Below the pieces are notes generated by a model. That model searched no databases and was not told where the DNA came from. It saw only the letters and a list, made by a program, of their open reading frames with translations. A DNA stretch of 11,043 bases from Methylovirgula sp. Its GTDB lineage: Bacteria > Pseudomonadota > Alphaproteobacteria > Rhizobiales > Beijerinckiaceae. The stretch is taken from contig JANXSV010000202.1 in assembly GCA_025356505.1 (NCBI GenBank), positions 1-11,043 of the forward strand. Direction: 5' to 3'. The translations under genes and the position numbers were made by a program. The number at the start of each line of letters is the position of its first letter. Positions within the stretch are counted from its first letter, which is position 1. Below are positions 5,785 to 11,043 of this stretch, piece by piece.

Positions 5785-6060
5785 TTAATAGCAGACGCGC
5801 CGCACCACGCGGTGCCAACCATAATAGCCACGCTCCCAGTGGCGCTTCAAATAACACCGCGGCGCATCATCGTAGTAGACCGGTGCGGGGCCGTAGATGG
5901 GTGGCGCGAAGCCAAATCCAAATCCCAACCCGCCGCCATGGCCGTAGCCGTGGTGATAGCCATAGCCAAATGGATCTGCGGCAGCTGGCGTTGTTGTAAC
6001 TGCCACCGCGCCGGCAAGCGCGGCAGCGGCAGTCAGGGCAAGTGTAACTTTGCGAAACAT
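5785..6060 (-). CDS. Small exported Gly/Tyr-rich protein with C-x20-C tail
   Basis: The protein is 91 residues from the ATG at 6058-6060, chosen because CAGGAG (complement of 6067-6072) sits six bases upstream; a longer frame starts at 6087 but has no such site. The Sec signal peptide has a basic start (MFRK), a hydrophobic Ala/Val core and likely cleavage after PAAA (about residue 28). The mature protein is Gly/Tyr/His-rich (about 31-52), then Pro/Tyr-rich, then ends with Cys69 and Cys90 separated by exactly 20 residues around an aromatic and basic core containing YYGWHR. No enzyme motif is visible. Proteins of this style are common in Hyphomicrobiales and are uncharacterised; an envelope or surface role is a guess. 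A disulfide between the two cysteines is plausible after export. Confidence 0.75.
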   Translation of the reverse strand: MFRKVTLALTAAAALAGAVAVTTTPAAADPFGYGYHHGYGHGGGLGFGFGFAPPIYGPAPVYYDDAPRCYLKRHWERGYYGWHRVVRRVCY

Positions 6061-6155
6061 TGAAAACTCCTGATGTTCGTCATTCACCAGGAATTTATAT
6101 GTGCCTCACGCTGAACAGAGCCTGACTGGCAGGTTCATCTGCCGTTCAGGCTCGT

Positions 6156-6536
6156 CTAGCGGAAACAGCGCCGATAGGGTCCAAAAACCATGCCGTAGCG
6201 CGAACGATGCCAACCGACATAACGACGGCACGACACACCGTAATACGGCCGGTAAAACGGACGGTAAATCGGTCGATAAATCGGCCGGTAATAGCGCCGC
6301 GGCCCGTAAAAATACCGGTGATGATAATGACGATATCTACGGTAACGTGTCTGATCGATTTGTGTCGCAGGAAGTGCCTCCTGCGCAGTTGTCAGCGCAG
6401 CAAGCGGAGCCGCAGCAGCGGTTTCCACCATAGGCGGTACTGCAGAGGCTGCGAGGCACAACGCCAGCACTGCGCGGGTCATAAACATTTTGAAAAATTG
6501 AAGCGGGGACAAAAACTTCAAAAAACTGGAAATCAT
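6156..6536 (-). CDS. Small exported Tyr/Arg-rich protein with YRP repeats and C-x20-C tail
   Basis: The protein is 126 residues. The start at 6534-6536 has an excellent GGAGGA (complement of 6544-6549), so the long n-region (MISSFLKFLSPLQFFKMFM) is probably real; in-frame ATGs at 6488 and 6482 would give a more ordinary signal peptide but have no ribosome-binding site. The hydrophobic core is residues 21-33, with likely cleavage near ETAAAA (about 38-43). After an Ala/Thr/Gln linker (44-62) the protein is dominated by Tyr, Arg and His: YRRYRHYHHRYFYGPRRY (65-82) and four YRP[IFY] tetrapeptides (83-98). It ends with Cys103 and Cys124 spaced by exactly 20 residues, with GWH between, as in the neighbouring 5785-6060 protein. 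The mature part is strongly basic. Function unknown; cell-surface or polyanion binding would be a guess. Confidence 0.75.
   Translation of the reverse strand: MISSFLKFLSPLQFFKMFMTRAVLALCLAASAVPPMVETAAAAPLAALTTAQEALPATQIDQTRYRRYRHYHHRYFYGPRRYYRPIYRPIYRPFYRPYYGVSCRRYVGWHRSRYGMVFGPYRRCFR
6243..6290 (-). repeat. Four 12-bp tandem units encoding YRP[I/F/Y]
   Basis: Four consecutive 12-bp units encode Tyr-Arg-Pro followed by Ile, Ile, Phe and Tyr (residues 83-98 of the 126-residue exported protein). The units differ at some positions, so this is an aged in-frame coding minisatellite rather than a fresh duplication. Copy number may vary between strains. Confidence 0.7.
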
Positions 6537-7238: not shown

Positions 7239-8162
7239 ATGACCAGCAAAACCTCAGCGCTTGACCCGGCCCGCTCGTTTCAGGGGCTTTTGTTGACCCT
7301 GCAACAATTCTGGGCAGCGCAGGGCTGCGTTATTTTGCAACCCTACGATATGGAAGTGGGCGCGGGCACGTTCCACCCTGCTACAACCTTGCGCTCCCTT
7401 GGCCCCAAACATTGGAACGCCGCCTATGTTCAGCCCTCCCGCCGCCCTAAAGATGGCCGATATGGGGAAAATCCCAACCGCCTCCAGCATTATTACCAGT
7501 TTCAGGTCATTCTGAAGCCATCGCCTTCAAACCTTCAGCAACTCTATCTCGATAGCCTCGCGGCCATAGGCGTTGATATGGCGCTGCACGACATCCGGTT
7601 TGTGGAAGATGACTGGGAAAGCCCAACACTCGGCGCTTGGGGGCTTGGCTGGGAATGTTGGTGCGACGGCATGGAAGTCAGTCAGTTCACCTATTTTCAG
7701 CAAGTGGCTGGCGTCGAATGTGCGCCGATATCCGGCGAACTCACCTATGGGTTGGAGCGCCTCGCCATGTATGTGCAGGGCGTTGAAAATGTCTATGACC
7801 TCAACTTCAACGGCCTCGAAGGCGCAGCCAAAGTCACCTACGGCGATGTGTTCAAACAAGCCGAGCAGGAATATTCCCGCCATAACTTTGAACATGCCGA
7901 TACGGCGATGCTGGTTCAACATTTCAAAGACGCTGAAGCCGAATGTAAAGCGTTGCTTGCCGCAGGCGATCAGCACGAGCGTCACACCATGGCGCTGCCT
8001 GCCTATGACCAATGCATCAAGGCGTCCCACCGCTTCAATCTGCTTGATGCGCGCGGCGTGATCTCGGTCACCGAACGCCAAAGCTATATTTTGCGTGTGC
8101 GCGAACTTGCCAAAGCCTGCGGGCAGGCTTGGCTCAAAACAGCAGGCGGCGGAGCGGCATAG
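7239..8162 (+). CDS. glyQ: Glycyl-tRNA synthetase alpha subunit
   Basis: GlyQ is the catalytic subunit of the bacterial alpha2beta2 glycyl-tRNA synthetase, a class II aminoacyl-tRNA synthetase that activates glycine with ATP. The 307 residues match the usual ~300. Family blocks include [20 protein letters not shown] (14-33), [16 protein letters not shown] (34-49), the motif 2 region from [14 protein letters not shown] to LQHYYQFQV (63-90) and the motif 3 region [16 protein letters not shown] (166-181), whose arginine is the class II ATP-binding residue. The ATG at 7239 is right for the family, but no Shine-Dalgarno precedes it; the 15-bp tandem repeats lie there instead. It is followed after 50 bp by glyS, so co-transcription is expected. 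Confidence 0.97.
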
Positions 8163-8212: not shown

Positions 8213-10777
8213 ATGCCCGACCTCCTTCTTGAATTGTTTAGCGAAGAAATCCCCGCCCGCATGCAGGCGAACGCCGCGCAGGATTTGCAGAAGCTGGTCA
8301 CCAATGCGCTCGTCGATCGCGGCCTCACCTATGAAGGCGCAGCCGCCTATGTCACGCCCCGCCGCTTAACGCTGAATATTGTTGGCCTTCCCGCCCGCCA
8401 GAGTGATCAGCACGAGGATATCAGAGGCCCGCGTGTCGGCTCACCCGAGCAGGCGCTGGCCGGATTCTTGAAAAAGGCCGGGCTGTCGTCGATCGATCAA
8501 GCCAAGATCGAATCCGATGGCAAAAAGGGCGAGATTTACATCGCCCACATCCACCGTGCCGGAAAGCAAACTTCAGACGTGTTGCGCGATATTCTGCCCG
8601 GCATCGTGCGCAATTTCCCGTGGCCAAGATCAATGCGTTGGGGCGATACGATAGCCTATCCGGAGTCGCTGCGCTGGGTGCGGCCTCTGCACAGCATTGT
8701 TTGCACCTTCGGGCCGGAAACCGAGGAGCCGGAAATCGTTGATTTCGAGGTTGGCGGCATCACGGCTTCCAACATTACCTACGGCCATCGTTTCATGGCG
8801 CCCGCTGCCATCAAAGTCCGGCGTTTCGGCGACTATGTTGCAGCGCTCGAGAAAGCCAAGGTGGTGCTTGATCCGGCGCGCCGCCGCGAAATTATTCTCA
8901 CCGACGCGCAGACGCTGGCCTTTGCGCATGGCTATGAGCTGGTTGAGGACGAGGGCCTGCTCAATGAAGTCGCCGGTCTTGTCGAATGGCCCGTGGTGCT
9001 GATGGGCAGTTTCGACGCGGCGTTTCTGGATATTCCGGGCGAAGTTGTGCGCGCCACCATCCGCGCCAATCAAAAATGCTTTGTGCTGCGAAACCCGAAA
9101 ACCAATAAGCTCGCCCCCGCCTTCATCCTCACCGCCAATATCGAGGCCACGGACCATGGCAAAGCCATCGCGGCCGGCAATAGCCGCGTTGTGCGCGCGC
9201 GCCTGTCCGATGCCCTGTATTTCTGGCAAACCGATCAGAAGCCGTTGCCGGATTATAATCCAAAGCGCAGCCTGCTCGATCAGCGCATGGACAAAAGCCG
9301 CCAGCTGAACATCGTCTTCCACGAAAAGCTCGGCACGCAGGGCGAACGCGTTGATCGCATCATTGCGTTGGCGCAGTATATTGCGTCGCTGGTTGGCGCA
9401 AATCCTGCCGATGCGAAGCGCGCTGCAGAACTGTGCAAAGCAGATCTAATCACAGAAGTTGTTGGCGAATTTCCTGAAGTGCAGGGCCTGATGGGCCGCC
9501 GCTATGCTGAGTTGCAGGGCGAAAAACCCGAAGTCGCGCTGGCGATCGAGGAACATTACAAGCCACAGGGCCCTTCGGACTATGTGCCGAAAAACCCCAT
9601 CTCCATTGCACTGGCGCTGGCCGACAAGCTCGACACTCTGGTTGGTTTCTGGGTGATTGATGAAAAACCCACCGGCTCGAAGGACCCCTTTGCCCTGCGC
9701 CGCGCCGCCTTGGGCGTGATCCGGCTGGTGCTGGAGAATGGATTGAAGATCAACCTGAGCAGCCCAGTCCGATACGCTCTTTTAAAACTACTTGTCTCCA
9801 AAATCGACTATTTTTATAATGCCTTTGATCGGGAATACCTCCCCAAAGAACGTCTAATCGAAGCAATAAGCTTTTTTGGCTATTTGCAGGAAAAGAGTCC
9901 TTTCGAGTACAATTATCTTAACTACGATGGATTTTTAAAACGATTTAATCCCTTGCTTATAAAAATGATGGACGAACATTGGGATGTGTATGAGTCGAGT
10001 ATCGAAGTTTTTGCGGTGGGCAACAATTTACTCGATTGGACAGTTACAGAAAAACTCTACGACACAGTTGTCCCGTTCGGCAAAAGGCTGAACGACGATG
10101 AAGTATCTCGTAGATACCCTGAATTGATGGAGCTTGTGACTAAGACTTTTGAGTCTAGGGCAAACGAGCTAACCAATTTAAGAATTCATCCGGATAAAAT
10201 TCCTGCAGAAAGTTCTTTTTTTGAAAAATATGCTTGTGCAATTTCCTCCGACCTCCTCACCTTTTTCAATGAACGCTTAAAAGTCTATCTGCGCGAGAAG
10301 GGCATGCGCCATGATGTCCTCGATGCGGTGATCTCACTCGAAGCAAATGACCTCCTCGAAATCCAAAACCGTGCGCAGGCGCTGCAAGTTTTCCTCGAAA
10401 CCGATTCGGGCAAAAACCTGCTCGCCGCCTATAAGCGCGCCGCCAATATCCTGCGCGCCGAGGAGAAGAAATTTCCCACTGAGGCCGCAAGTTATGCGCT
10501 ACCCGGCGAAGTCAAATATCTACACGAACCCTCAGAAAAGGCGCTTGGCGCTGAATTGCACACTTCTGCCTACGAGACCTCCGCCGCGATGCGGAAAAAT
10601 GATTTCACCGCCGCGCTCAATGCTCTCGCGAAGCTGGCGCAACCTGCAGAGGCGTTTTTCACCGATGTCATGGTCAACGCCGACGATGCCGCCCTGCGCC
10701 TCAACCGCCTGCGGTTGCTCTCGAATTTCAGAGCGCAAATGCACGCCGCAGCGGATTTTTCTAAAATTGCAGGCTGA
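8213..10777 (+). CDS. glyS: Glycyl-tRNA synthetase beta subunit carrying an unusual internal insertion
   Basis: GlyS binds tRNA(Gly) and complements GlyQ in the heterotetramer. The N-terminus [18 protein letters not shown] is diagnostic. The tRNA-binding body continues through blocks such as [11 protein letters not shown] and the HD-like domain with [13 protein letters not shown] and [20 protein letters not shown], up to about residue 515. The C-terminal DALR-type anticodon-binding domain begins at [18 protein letters not shown] (680-697) and runs to ADFSKIAG at the end. The protein is 854 residues, against about 690-700 usually; the excess lies in one block, residues 516-679, whose DNA is AT-rich and unlike its surroundings. 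The frame is intact and both flanking domains look functional. No clear ribosome-binding site precedes the ATG at 8213. Confidence 0.96.
9758..10249 (+). other. AT-rich in-frame insertion within glyS
   Basis: This block encodes residues 516-679 of GlyS, between LENGLKINL (507-515) and the start of the anticodon-binding domain. Hand-counted GC over 9781-10260 is 185/480 (38.5%), against 107/180 (59%) in the 180 bases 9541-9720. Codons rare elsewhere in the gene cluster here: TTA and CTA leucine, AGA and AGG arginine, ATA isoleucine. The protein is rich in Phe, Tyr, Asn, Lys and Glu, predicted mostly helical by eye, with no cysteine-asparagine intein junctions, no transposase DDE pattern and no zinc motif. 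I saw no terminal inverted repeats or target duplication. Exact ends are uncertain by some 10-20 codons because the native linker is variable. Confidence 0.8.
9792..9820 (+). promoter_or_regulatory. Promoter-like sequence inside the glyS insertion
   Basis: TTGTCT (9792-9797), a 17-bp spacer and a perfect TATAAT (9815-9820) form a sigma-70-like promoter on the plus strand at the start of the AT-rich block. It may be incidental to the low GC. An in-frame ATG pair follows at 9965-9970 without a ribosome-binding site. Confidence 0.3.
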
Positions 10778-10947
10778 TGAAAAGCGCTTCGTGCGCATCA
10801 AACATCAGCCGGCACTTAAATTTTTGCAGAAAGTGGCGCAATTATTGCAGCTTTAGCGCTAAGTCTTATTCCAATTTCAATATTTCTGTTCCAAAACACC
10901 CCCATGCCTCAAGCTGAAATCCGGCCAAATATCGAAGGACATCTAAT
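10778..10947. other. Intergenic region between glyS and ppdK
   Basis: This 170-bp stretch holds a small imperfect hairpin (GCGC-TTCGT-GCGC, 10783-10795) with no T-tract, a GCAAT-T-ATTGC dyad (10838-10848) and the palindrome TTAGCGCTAA (10853-10862). No convincing intrinsic terminator for glyS and no well-spaced promoter for ppdK were found, though one should lie here or read-through occurs. Confidence 0.4.
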
Positions 10948-11043
10948 ATGGTGAAATGGGTCTATTCATTCGGCGACGGTAAAGCCGAAGGCAAAGCGGG
11001 CATGAAAAACCTTTTGGGCGGCAAGGGCGCAAATCTCGCCGAA
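10948..11043 (+). CDS. ppdK: Pyruvate, phosphate dikinase, N-terminal fragment cut by window edge
   Basis: Thirty-two codons are present, reading [15 protein letters not shown] and then the [11 protein letters not shown] block, which is the highly conserved start of PPDK. The GGKGANL stretch belongs to the N-terminal ATP-grasp nucleotide-binding domain. The enzyme interconverts pyruvate, ATP and phosphate with phosphoenolpyruvate, AMP and pyrophosphate, in the cytoplasm. The ATG at 10948 has GAAGGA (10934-10939) eight bases upstream. The rest of the roughly 880-residue protein lies beyond the window. Confidence 0.93.

Follow-up and report, generated by a model that had tools for sequence, protein, structure and literature searches.

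The glyS gene, which codes for the beta subunit of glycyl-tRNA synthetase (GlyRS), carries a low-GC in-frame block in the 11,043-nt stretch of Methylovirgula sp. DNA analyzed here (hereafter, the window). This block is probably one allele of a hypervariable cassette locus within glyS, which we consider the best overall explanation, and it is very likely that alternative cassettes are exchanged through the conserved flanks of the gene. Hypervariable cassettes are expected at cell surfaces and in specificity subunits, and not in the tRNA-charging machinery.

A Low-GC Block Lies Between Two Conserved Domains of GlyS

In the window, glyS spans 8213..10777 of the forward strand, in 854 codons that form one unbroken ORF. 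It is preceded by an ordinary ORF of 307 aa (7239..8162, +; GC 56.4%) which, from its own sequence and its position ahead of glyS, we take to be glyQ, coding for the alpha subunit. The product of glyS scores 725.5 bits against the NCBIfam model TIGR00211 (cut-off 300), matches the Pfam family tRNA_synt_2f (PF02092) and has a C-terminal anticodon-binding domain (ABD), by which it was assigned to GlyS. Elsewhere in the window, two small ORFs (5785-6087 and 6156-6536, both -) code for Gly/Tyr/Arg/Pro-rich products that, judged by eye, are perhaps secreted.

Three parts can be told apart in the gene. The conserved body through the end of the HD part (residues 1–515, 8213..9757, +) has a GC content of 58.8% and a GC3 of 69.3; the corresponding values are 39.0% and 39.6 for the block (residues 516–679, 9758..10249, +), a hypervariable cassette which, to judge by the linkers of relatives, replaces a short ancestral linker, and 55.6% and 64.0 for the conserved, DALR_1-like ABD (residues 680–854, 10250..10774, +). 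The first-pass annotation had described an 854-residue GlyS with a foreign-looking, low-GC block at precisely these coordinates, and both the position and the difference in GC from the upstream part are correct. It had also sited the block at the boundary between the HD-like body and the ABD, in agreement with what was found: the alignment of the solved GlyS chain 7yse_C to the window GlyS is lost after residue 519 and regained at 677, an interval for which 7yse_C has 15 residues, and the Pfam matches cover residues 4–524 (PF02092) and 737–846 (DALR_1, PF05746).

The block is coding sequence and not a chance reading frame, since frame +1 alone is open, the other five containing 6–13 stops each, and when the bases of the block were shuffled 20,000 times the frame was open in 0 cases. 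This openness also speaks against an assembly chimera or a frameshift artifact, an explanation suggested by the fact that the window makes up the entire length of a short contig, one of 453 in the assembly. As like replacements, with the same boundaries, occur in many other assemblies, those of isolates included, we regard it as extremely improbable. A Ser-Ser pair at residues 516–517 and 678–679 had been proposed to mark the join; because the pair is unconserved at the block edges in the relatives compared, it is unlikely to do so and is probably incidental.

Close Relatives Often Carry Unrelated Linkers

GlyS was found in 59 of the 60 genomes searched, the window's own genome among the 60. 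Full matches are typically interrupted at about residue 517 and regained at about 677, within open frames of very different length. Alignment with relatives, which had been proposed as a means of defining the ends of the block, hence yields typical ends near 517 and 677, but the linkers so flanked are mostly unrelated to each other. The genome lacking a GlyS match, G001, belongs to the same family and is listed as 100% complete; its congeners G067, G103 and G130 have one, and the absence possibly reflects a missing stretch of sequence or the use of a different type of glycyl-tRNA synthetase. Among the matches listed, one in G002 contains a stop.

The protein set, with the best 120 listed of 8000 matches, leans to close relatives. 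The closest proteins among the matches listed, P0009, P0010 and P0011, are 86–88% identical to the window GlyS in the best local alignment, and their linkers, of 64, 42 and 53 residues (the last counted by eye), are unlike that of the window and unlike each other; between P0009 and P0010, body identity is nevertheless 97.8% and ABD identity 98.8%. Similar variety was observed at 80 named loci from Beijerinckiaceae, Bosea, Microvirga, Methylobacterium, Mesorhizobium and others (the L084 sequence stops short of the linker).

For a systematic comparison, 253 of the 255 entries longer than 600 aa were reduced, by merging identical ones, to 230 unique GlyS proteins; three loci without a frame and five entries without an end anchor, P0011 among them, had been dropped beforehand. 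Clustering of the 230 linkers (blastp, E < 1e-4) gave 131 clusters, of which 100 are singletons. Taking as homologous those linkers that match at E < 1e-3 (blastp), both being at least 25 aa long, homology was detected in 6 of 7 pairs with 100% body identity, in 87 of 160 at 95 to <100%, in 75 of 437 at 90–95%, in 76 of 980 at 85–90% and in 10 of 1067 at 80–85%. Measured by DNA, 27 of the 160 pairs with a body dS of 0.2–0.4 share a homologous linker.

Linkers without detectable similarity occur in 27 of the 70 protein pairs with a body identity of at least 97%, part of which may be diverged homologues; short linkers are unable to reach low E-values. For instance, P0022 and P0023 bear linkers of this kind and are 98.2% identical in the body and the same in the ABD, and for P0020 and P0024, likewise among the 27, the identities are 97.6 and 98.8%. 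A candidate for diverged homology among the 27 is L129/P0105 (body 99.6%, ABD 100%), whose equal-length linkers look partly alike. For a given body identity, pairs with different linkers have an ABD identity about 2–5 points lower than pairs sharing a linker, which fits recombination tracts that enter the ABD, without being proof of them; one outlier pair, P0016/P0019 (n = 1), has a body identity of 100% and an ABD identity of 76%.

A Short Linker Has Been Replaced Between Nearly Fixed Boundaries

Fourteen locus pairs were compared at the DNA level, their main collinear blocks being about 78–94% identical and up to about 13 kb long. In all 13 pairs with different linkers, similarity is lost no more than 25 nt from the last HD codon, and in 12 of them it is regained within 12 nt of the ABD motif, L061/L072 regaining it inside the ABD. 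In the remaining pair, L064/L098, the linker is shared and similarity runs continuously across it.

The event is seen clearly in another alphaproteobacterial family, f76, represented by the best 30 of 81 matching genomes. At 28 of these 30 loci the linker has 39 residues (27 called by pattern, L175 by reading) and a GC content near that of the gene. The other two, L159 and L169, have linkers of 93 and 92 residues with a GC content of 45–46%, between flanks that are 96.5/96.1% and 95.4/94.8% identical in DNA to those of the short-linker relatives. Since L159 and L169 differ from their 39-residue relatives in the linker while the flanks match at about 95–97%, the short linker has here been replaced and not split. 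The first-pass annotation had thought of an acquired element; what is found, instead of an insertion confined to one genome, is a short ancestral linker that has given way to other sequence, at a position hypervariable throughout the family.

Linker length, counted from the last HD arginine to the FFxDRLKV motif, was also surveyed more widely. The survey took in 40 of the 120 genomes with a match in a class-wide draw and, from outside the class, 20 of 28 with a match; of its 120 loci in all, 10 had no frame that could be read by pattern and were left out (8 of the 20, and 2 of the 40, in both of which the GlyS frame is long). Linkers range from 22 to 113 residues at 31 loci of the Bosea-like group g12 (19 of at least 50) and from 36 to 99 at 29 loci of the Microvirga-like group g32 (24 of at least 50). 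Other alphaproteobacterial families show 22–123 residues with a median of 39 (38 of 40 readable, 4 of at least 50). Outside the class but within the phylum, in what are presumably beta- and gammaproteobacteria, the range is 37–54 with a median of 40 (12 of 20 readable, one of at least 50), and the family of G583, also outside the class, has a 41-residue linker in 8 of 8. Because the other families and the genomes outside the class mostly keep about 40 residues, the short form looks ancestral, and judging from these sequences replacement looks common in the family to which the window belongs and occasional outside it.

Genes around glyS served as a local control, in which an internal segment of less than 35% identity between conserved flanks was flagged. 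In two genome pairs, both picked for their differing glyS linkers, 131 (L159/L164) and 109 (L064/L101) orthologous gene pairs, 240 altogether, were scanned. Seven were flagged: glyS in both genome pairs, and five other genes in L159/L164 that we read as repeat or low-complexity indels. Another scan of L064/L101 (107 pairs) flagged glyS and one borderline ORF, read as antisense. Among the 240 gene pairs around glyS, none is comparable but glyS itself.

Some Cassettes Are Shared Between Lineages and Are Under Constraint

Low GC is usual for these cassettes and not special to the window, since the median GC of 96 linkers of at least 40 aa for which DNA was at hand is 12.3 points under that of the gene body (ABD median, -0.3); 76% of them lie more than 5 points under the body and none more than 5 over.

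On a tree built quickly from 155 gene bodies, the 114 rows with a linker of at least 40 aa comprise 78 types and call for at least 88 changes. The Microvirga/Bosea cassette, present in 18 rows, accounts for at least 11 changes, one 5-row cassette for 5 and one 4-row cassette for 4; near-vertical cassettes exist too (4 rows with 2 changes, 3 rows with 1). Free-standing relatives of the cassettes were sought by a six-frame genome search with the families A2 and A7, the protein search being restricted to GlyS-like lengths, and both families were found in glyS only. A7, the Microvirga/Bosea family, occurs in 18 of 397 genomes of the family and A2 in 5 of 397 (the window's by construction), with a single match per genome, each in a frame of glyS length. 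The first-pass annotation had allowed that the same segment, at matching GC, might be found across the order as part of an ordinary GlyS. This is not so: when the A2 profile, in which the window's segment is included, was run against 397 genomes sampled order-wide, the window was its sole match.

An early reading of the block as a homologue of the NYDGF cassettes, which belong to other genera, was demoted. Against a profile built without the window (from L016, P0003, P0005 and P0118), the window cassette ranked first of those outside the profile among 534 sequences searched (334 linkers and 200 shuffles), at an E-value of 0.069 over 17 residues, and hhalign gave an E-value of 6e-4 and a probability of 28%; the resemblance is at most marginal.

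Substitution rates were estimated for 173 pairs with homologous linkers of at least 40 codons, of which 33 were saturated in linker dS, leaving 140. Median dS is 0.52 in the body, 0.99 in the linker and 0.55 in the ABD; the linker exceeds the body in 124 of the 140 pairs and the ABD in 110, an excess whose direction weighs more than its size, as the pairs are non-independent and the linkers differ in base composition. Median dN/dS is 0.089 in the body, 0.158 in the linker and 0.091 in the ABD, with a linker value below 0.5 in 138 of the 140 pairs; these figures come from shared cassettes other than that of the window, which is a singleton without a confident homologue. A short shared linker of 32 codons (L042/L011) has a dN/dS of 1.31. 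The cassettes are not junk: those that are shared are under purifying selection. On the simplest reading, a cassette that is shared would be functional as part of the protein and would in many cases predate the gene that surrounds it. Horizontal acquisition, already put forward in the first-pass annotation, remains the best reading for the window's block.

This constraint, together with the recurrence of the same cassettes in separate lineages and the absence of the two families searched from sites outside glyS, argues against the main rival explanation. According to it, the HD-ABD loop is a permissive spacer that tolerates any incoming DNA, subject to a folding constraint, and has no role. 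Such tolerance is consistent with linker lengths of 20 to 198 residues by the counting used here, with extra residues near 295–300 and 709 in the GlyS of relatives, and with the resemblance of linkers P0002, P0015, L006/L076 and L080 to translated dispersed repeats (MAGLVPAIH...GHD type); it would be less expected to leave glyS as the one such gene in the local control, where the five other flagged pairs were read as repeat or low-complexity indels. We consider a spacer without a role unlikely.

Purifying selection inside shared cassettes would also be seen if particular lineages had appended an ordinary domain with one set function, for example the binding of tRNA or of a partner. AlphaFold predicts for the L101 cassette a helical pair that enters the first ABD helix, an extension of this kind, with moderate confidence (58–78) from a shallow alignment of 17 rows; for the window cassette, from a likewise shallow alignment of 32 rows, helices are predicted with low confidence (block means of 35–62 over residues 531–670). 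Against such a domain stand the 27 of 70 pairs that have dissimilar segments in bodies at least 97% identical, and we hold it to be quite improbable. The fixed new domain with one partner considered in the first-pass annotation is unlikely for the same reason, as bodies 97–100% identical can bear unrelated segments.

Searches for the Source of the Block

Its low GC and patchy distribution could also be those of a selfish or mobile element residing at the site (a palindromic element, a homing element or the remnant of an intein), which we nonetheless judge very improbable. In the window's genome the block matches itself alone by protein, and by DNA no further match lies below an E-value of 0.09, so that the copies in other genes which the first-pass annotation proposed to look for were not encountered in this genome. 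Phages gave no match; four pattern matches in viral contigs were not confirmed, and the two matches in plasmids both have an E-value of 0.8. Between 9600 and 10400 there are 0 inverted repeat pairs and one 14-nt two-copy direct repeat, no more. No Pfam domain was found in the block up to an E-value of 1, and an intein was rejected, a Hint/splicing domain being absent from these matches. RNA families searched in 9000–11043 gave none up to an E-value of 0.1. Moreover, the clean cases show the ancestral linker replaced, not split.

The comparison with the palindromic elements of Rickettsia that had been drawn for the block does not hold. These elements consist of hairpin-forming inverted repeats with many genome copies. 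Like them, the glyS cassette is an in-frame segment within a conserved protein; unlike them, it is non-palindromic, present in a single copy and not dispersed in the genome, and much longer; in the comparisons made with short-linker close relatives, it takes the place of sequence and does not add to it.

Of the 92 listed linkers of at least 60 aa, 53 (the window's included) were also compared with Pfam, PHROG and PADLOC, with nothing convincing: the best E-values were 0.014, 0.0032 and 0.0046, respectively, and each family was matched by one member. Accordingly, nothing among these 53 linkers points to a phage or a toxin. A protein search with alignment A4, built from these 53 unrelated linkers, gave no matches, which means little for a profile of unrelated sequences.

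Comparison with Known Systems and Possible Driver

No description of a hypervariable glyS linker was found in the open-licence part of the literature. Among known systems, the HsdS subunits of type I restriction enzymes exchange unrelated target-recognition domains between conserved stretches, and the exchanged segment sets a known specificity. The glyS gene would likewise swap unrelated variable segments between conserved stretches; of the two systems, a known specificity of the segment belongs to HsdS alone.

Idiosyncratic insertions of aminoacyl-tRNA synthetases offer another parallel. Ins3 of human GlyRS contacts tRNA, and its deletion nearly abolishes activity (PMC8464048). The glyS cassette is, like Ins3 as there described, an extra domain in a synthetase; unlike it, glyS cassettes can differ completely between close relatives.

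The nearest likeness is with flagellin. As described in PMC7018530, the hypervariable region of flagellin has forms without detectable homology between conserved ends, each with internal variation; these forms are thought to move by recombination in the conserved ends, and a different surface is their sole known role. Exchange of cassettes through the flanks was adopted as an explanation for glyS because the pattern matches that described for flagellin. Both have the conserved ends of a housekeeping-like gene and unrelated central forms, a likeness in behavior and not in homology. In glyS, central forms without detectable homology are found between close relatives while the ends are conserved (the 27 of 70 pairs and the DNA flanks), and forms common to separate lineages by exchange are indicated by the changes on the body tree and by the higher linker dS in 124 of 140 pairs. 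The two differ in setting: GlyS binds tRNA in the cytoplasm, as a subunit of an enzyme that the cell cannot do without, whereas flagellin lies outside the cell and acts as an antigen.

Taken together, these observations show for the family, the window's own cassette being a singleton, that the short ancestral linker at the HD-ABD junction gives way in frame, between near-fixed boundaries, to segments that vary widely in length, are mostly dissimilar to each other and mostly have a lower GC than the gene. Alleles would move between strains and species by homologous recombination of the flagellin type, the exchanged tracts ending within conserved glyS sequence on either side, and cassettes may be changed often because a new surface at the HD-ABD hinge is favored. 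We infer such selection for change from the turnover; no antagonist, partner or phenotype was found.

Escape from an antagonist that binds GlyRS is the leading candidate for a driver, which we infer with reserve. The candidate binder at the hinge might be a phage protein, a toxin or the inhibitor of a competitor, while the conserved domains would go on charging tRNA. Somewhat more doubtful is the wider proposal that glyS could be a polymorphic recognition locus, in which unrelated cassettes are exchanged, diversity is kept by a rare-allele advantage against GlyRS-binding factors of phages or competitors, and old alleles cross species borders. If an antagonist is the driver, this bacterial group would be under a widespread attack on glycyl-tRNA synthetase that has so far gone undescribed, and the cassettes would be ready baits with which to find the attacker. 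Whatever the driver, the locus is a natural experiment on how modules that are unrelated, yet constrained, are accommodated at a single hinge of an essential multidomain enzyme, and the linker may serve as a marker that separates close strains.

Other Variable Sites in GlyS

A second extra segment is present inside the ABD, near window residues 708–711, in G011, G014, G019, G022, G035 and G055 and in L009, L018 and L031. In the last three, where it was read, it is Pro/Ser/Gly-rich and has what we take to be the look of translated dispersed repeats. At a third site, near window residues 295–300, GlyS is split or extended in G014, G035, G050 and P0003, and the extra residues of P0003 look repeat-derived. 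The repeat-like linkers P0002, P0015, L006/L076 and L080 have in common, across different genera, a MAGLVPAIH...DxRxKxGHD-like stretch, which we presume to be a dispersed palindromic repeat read in frame.
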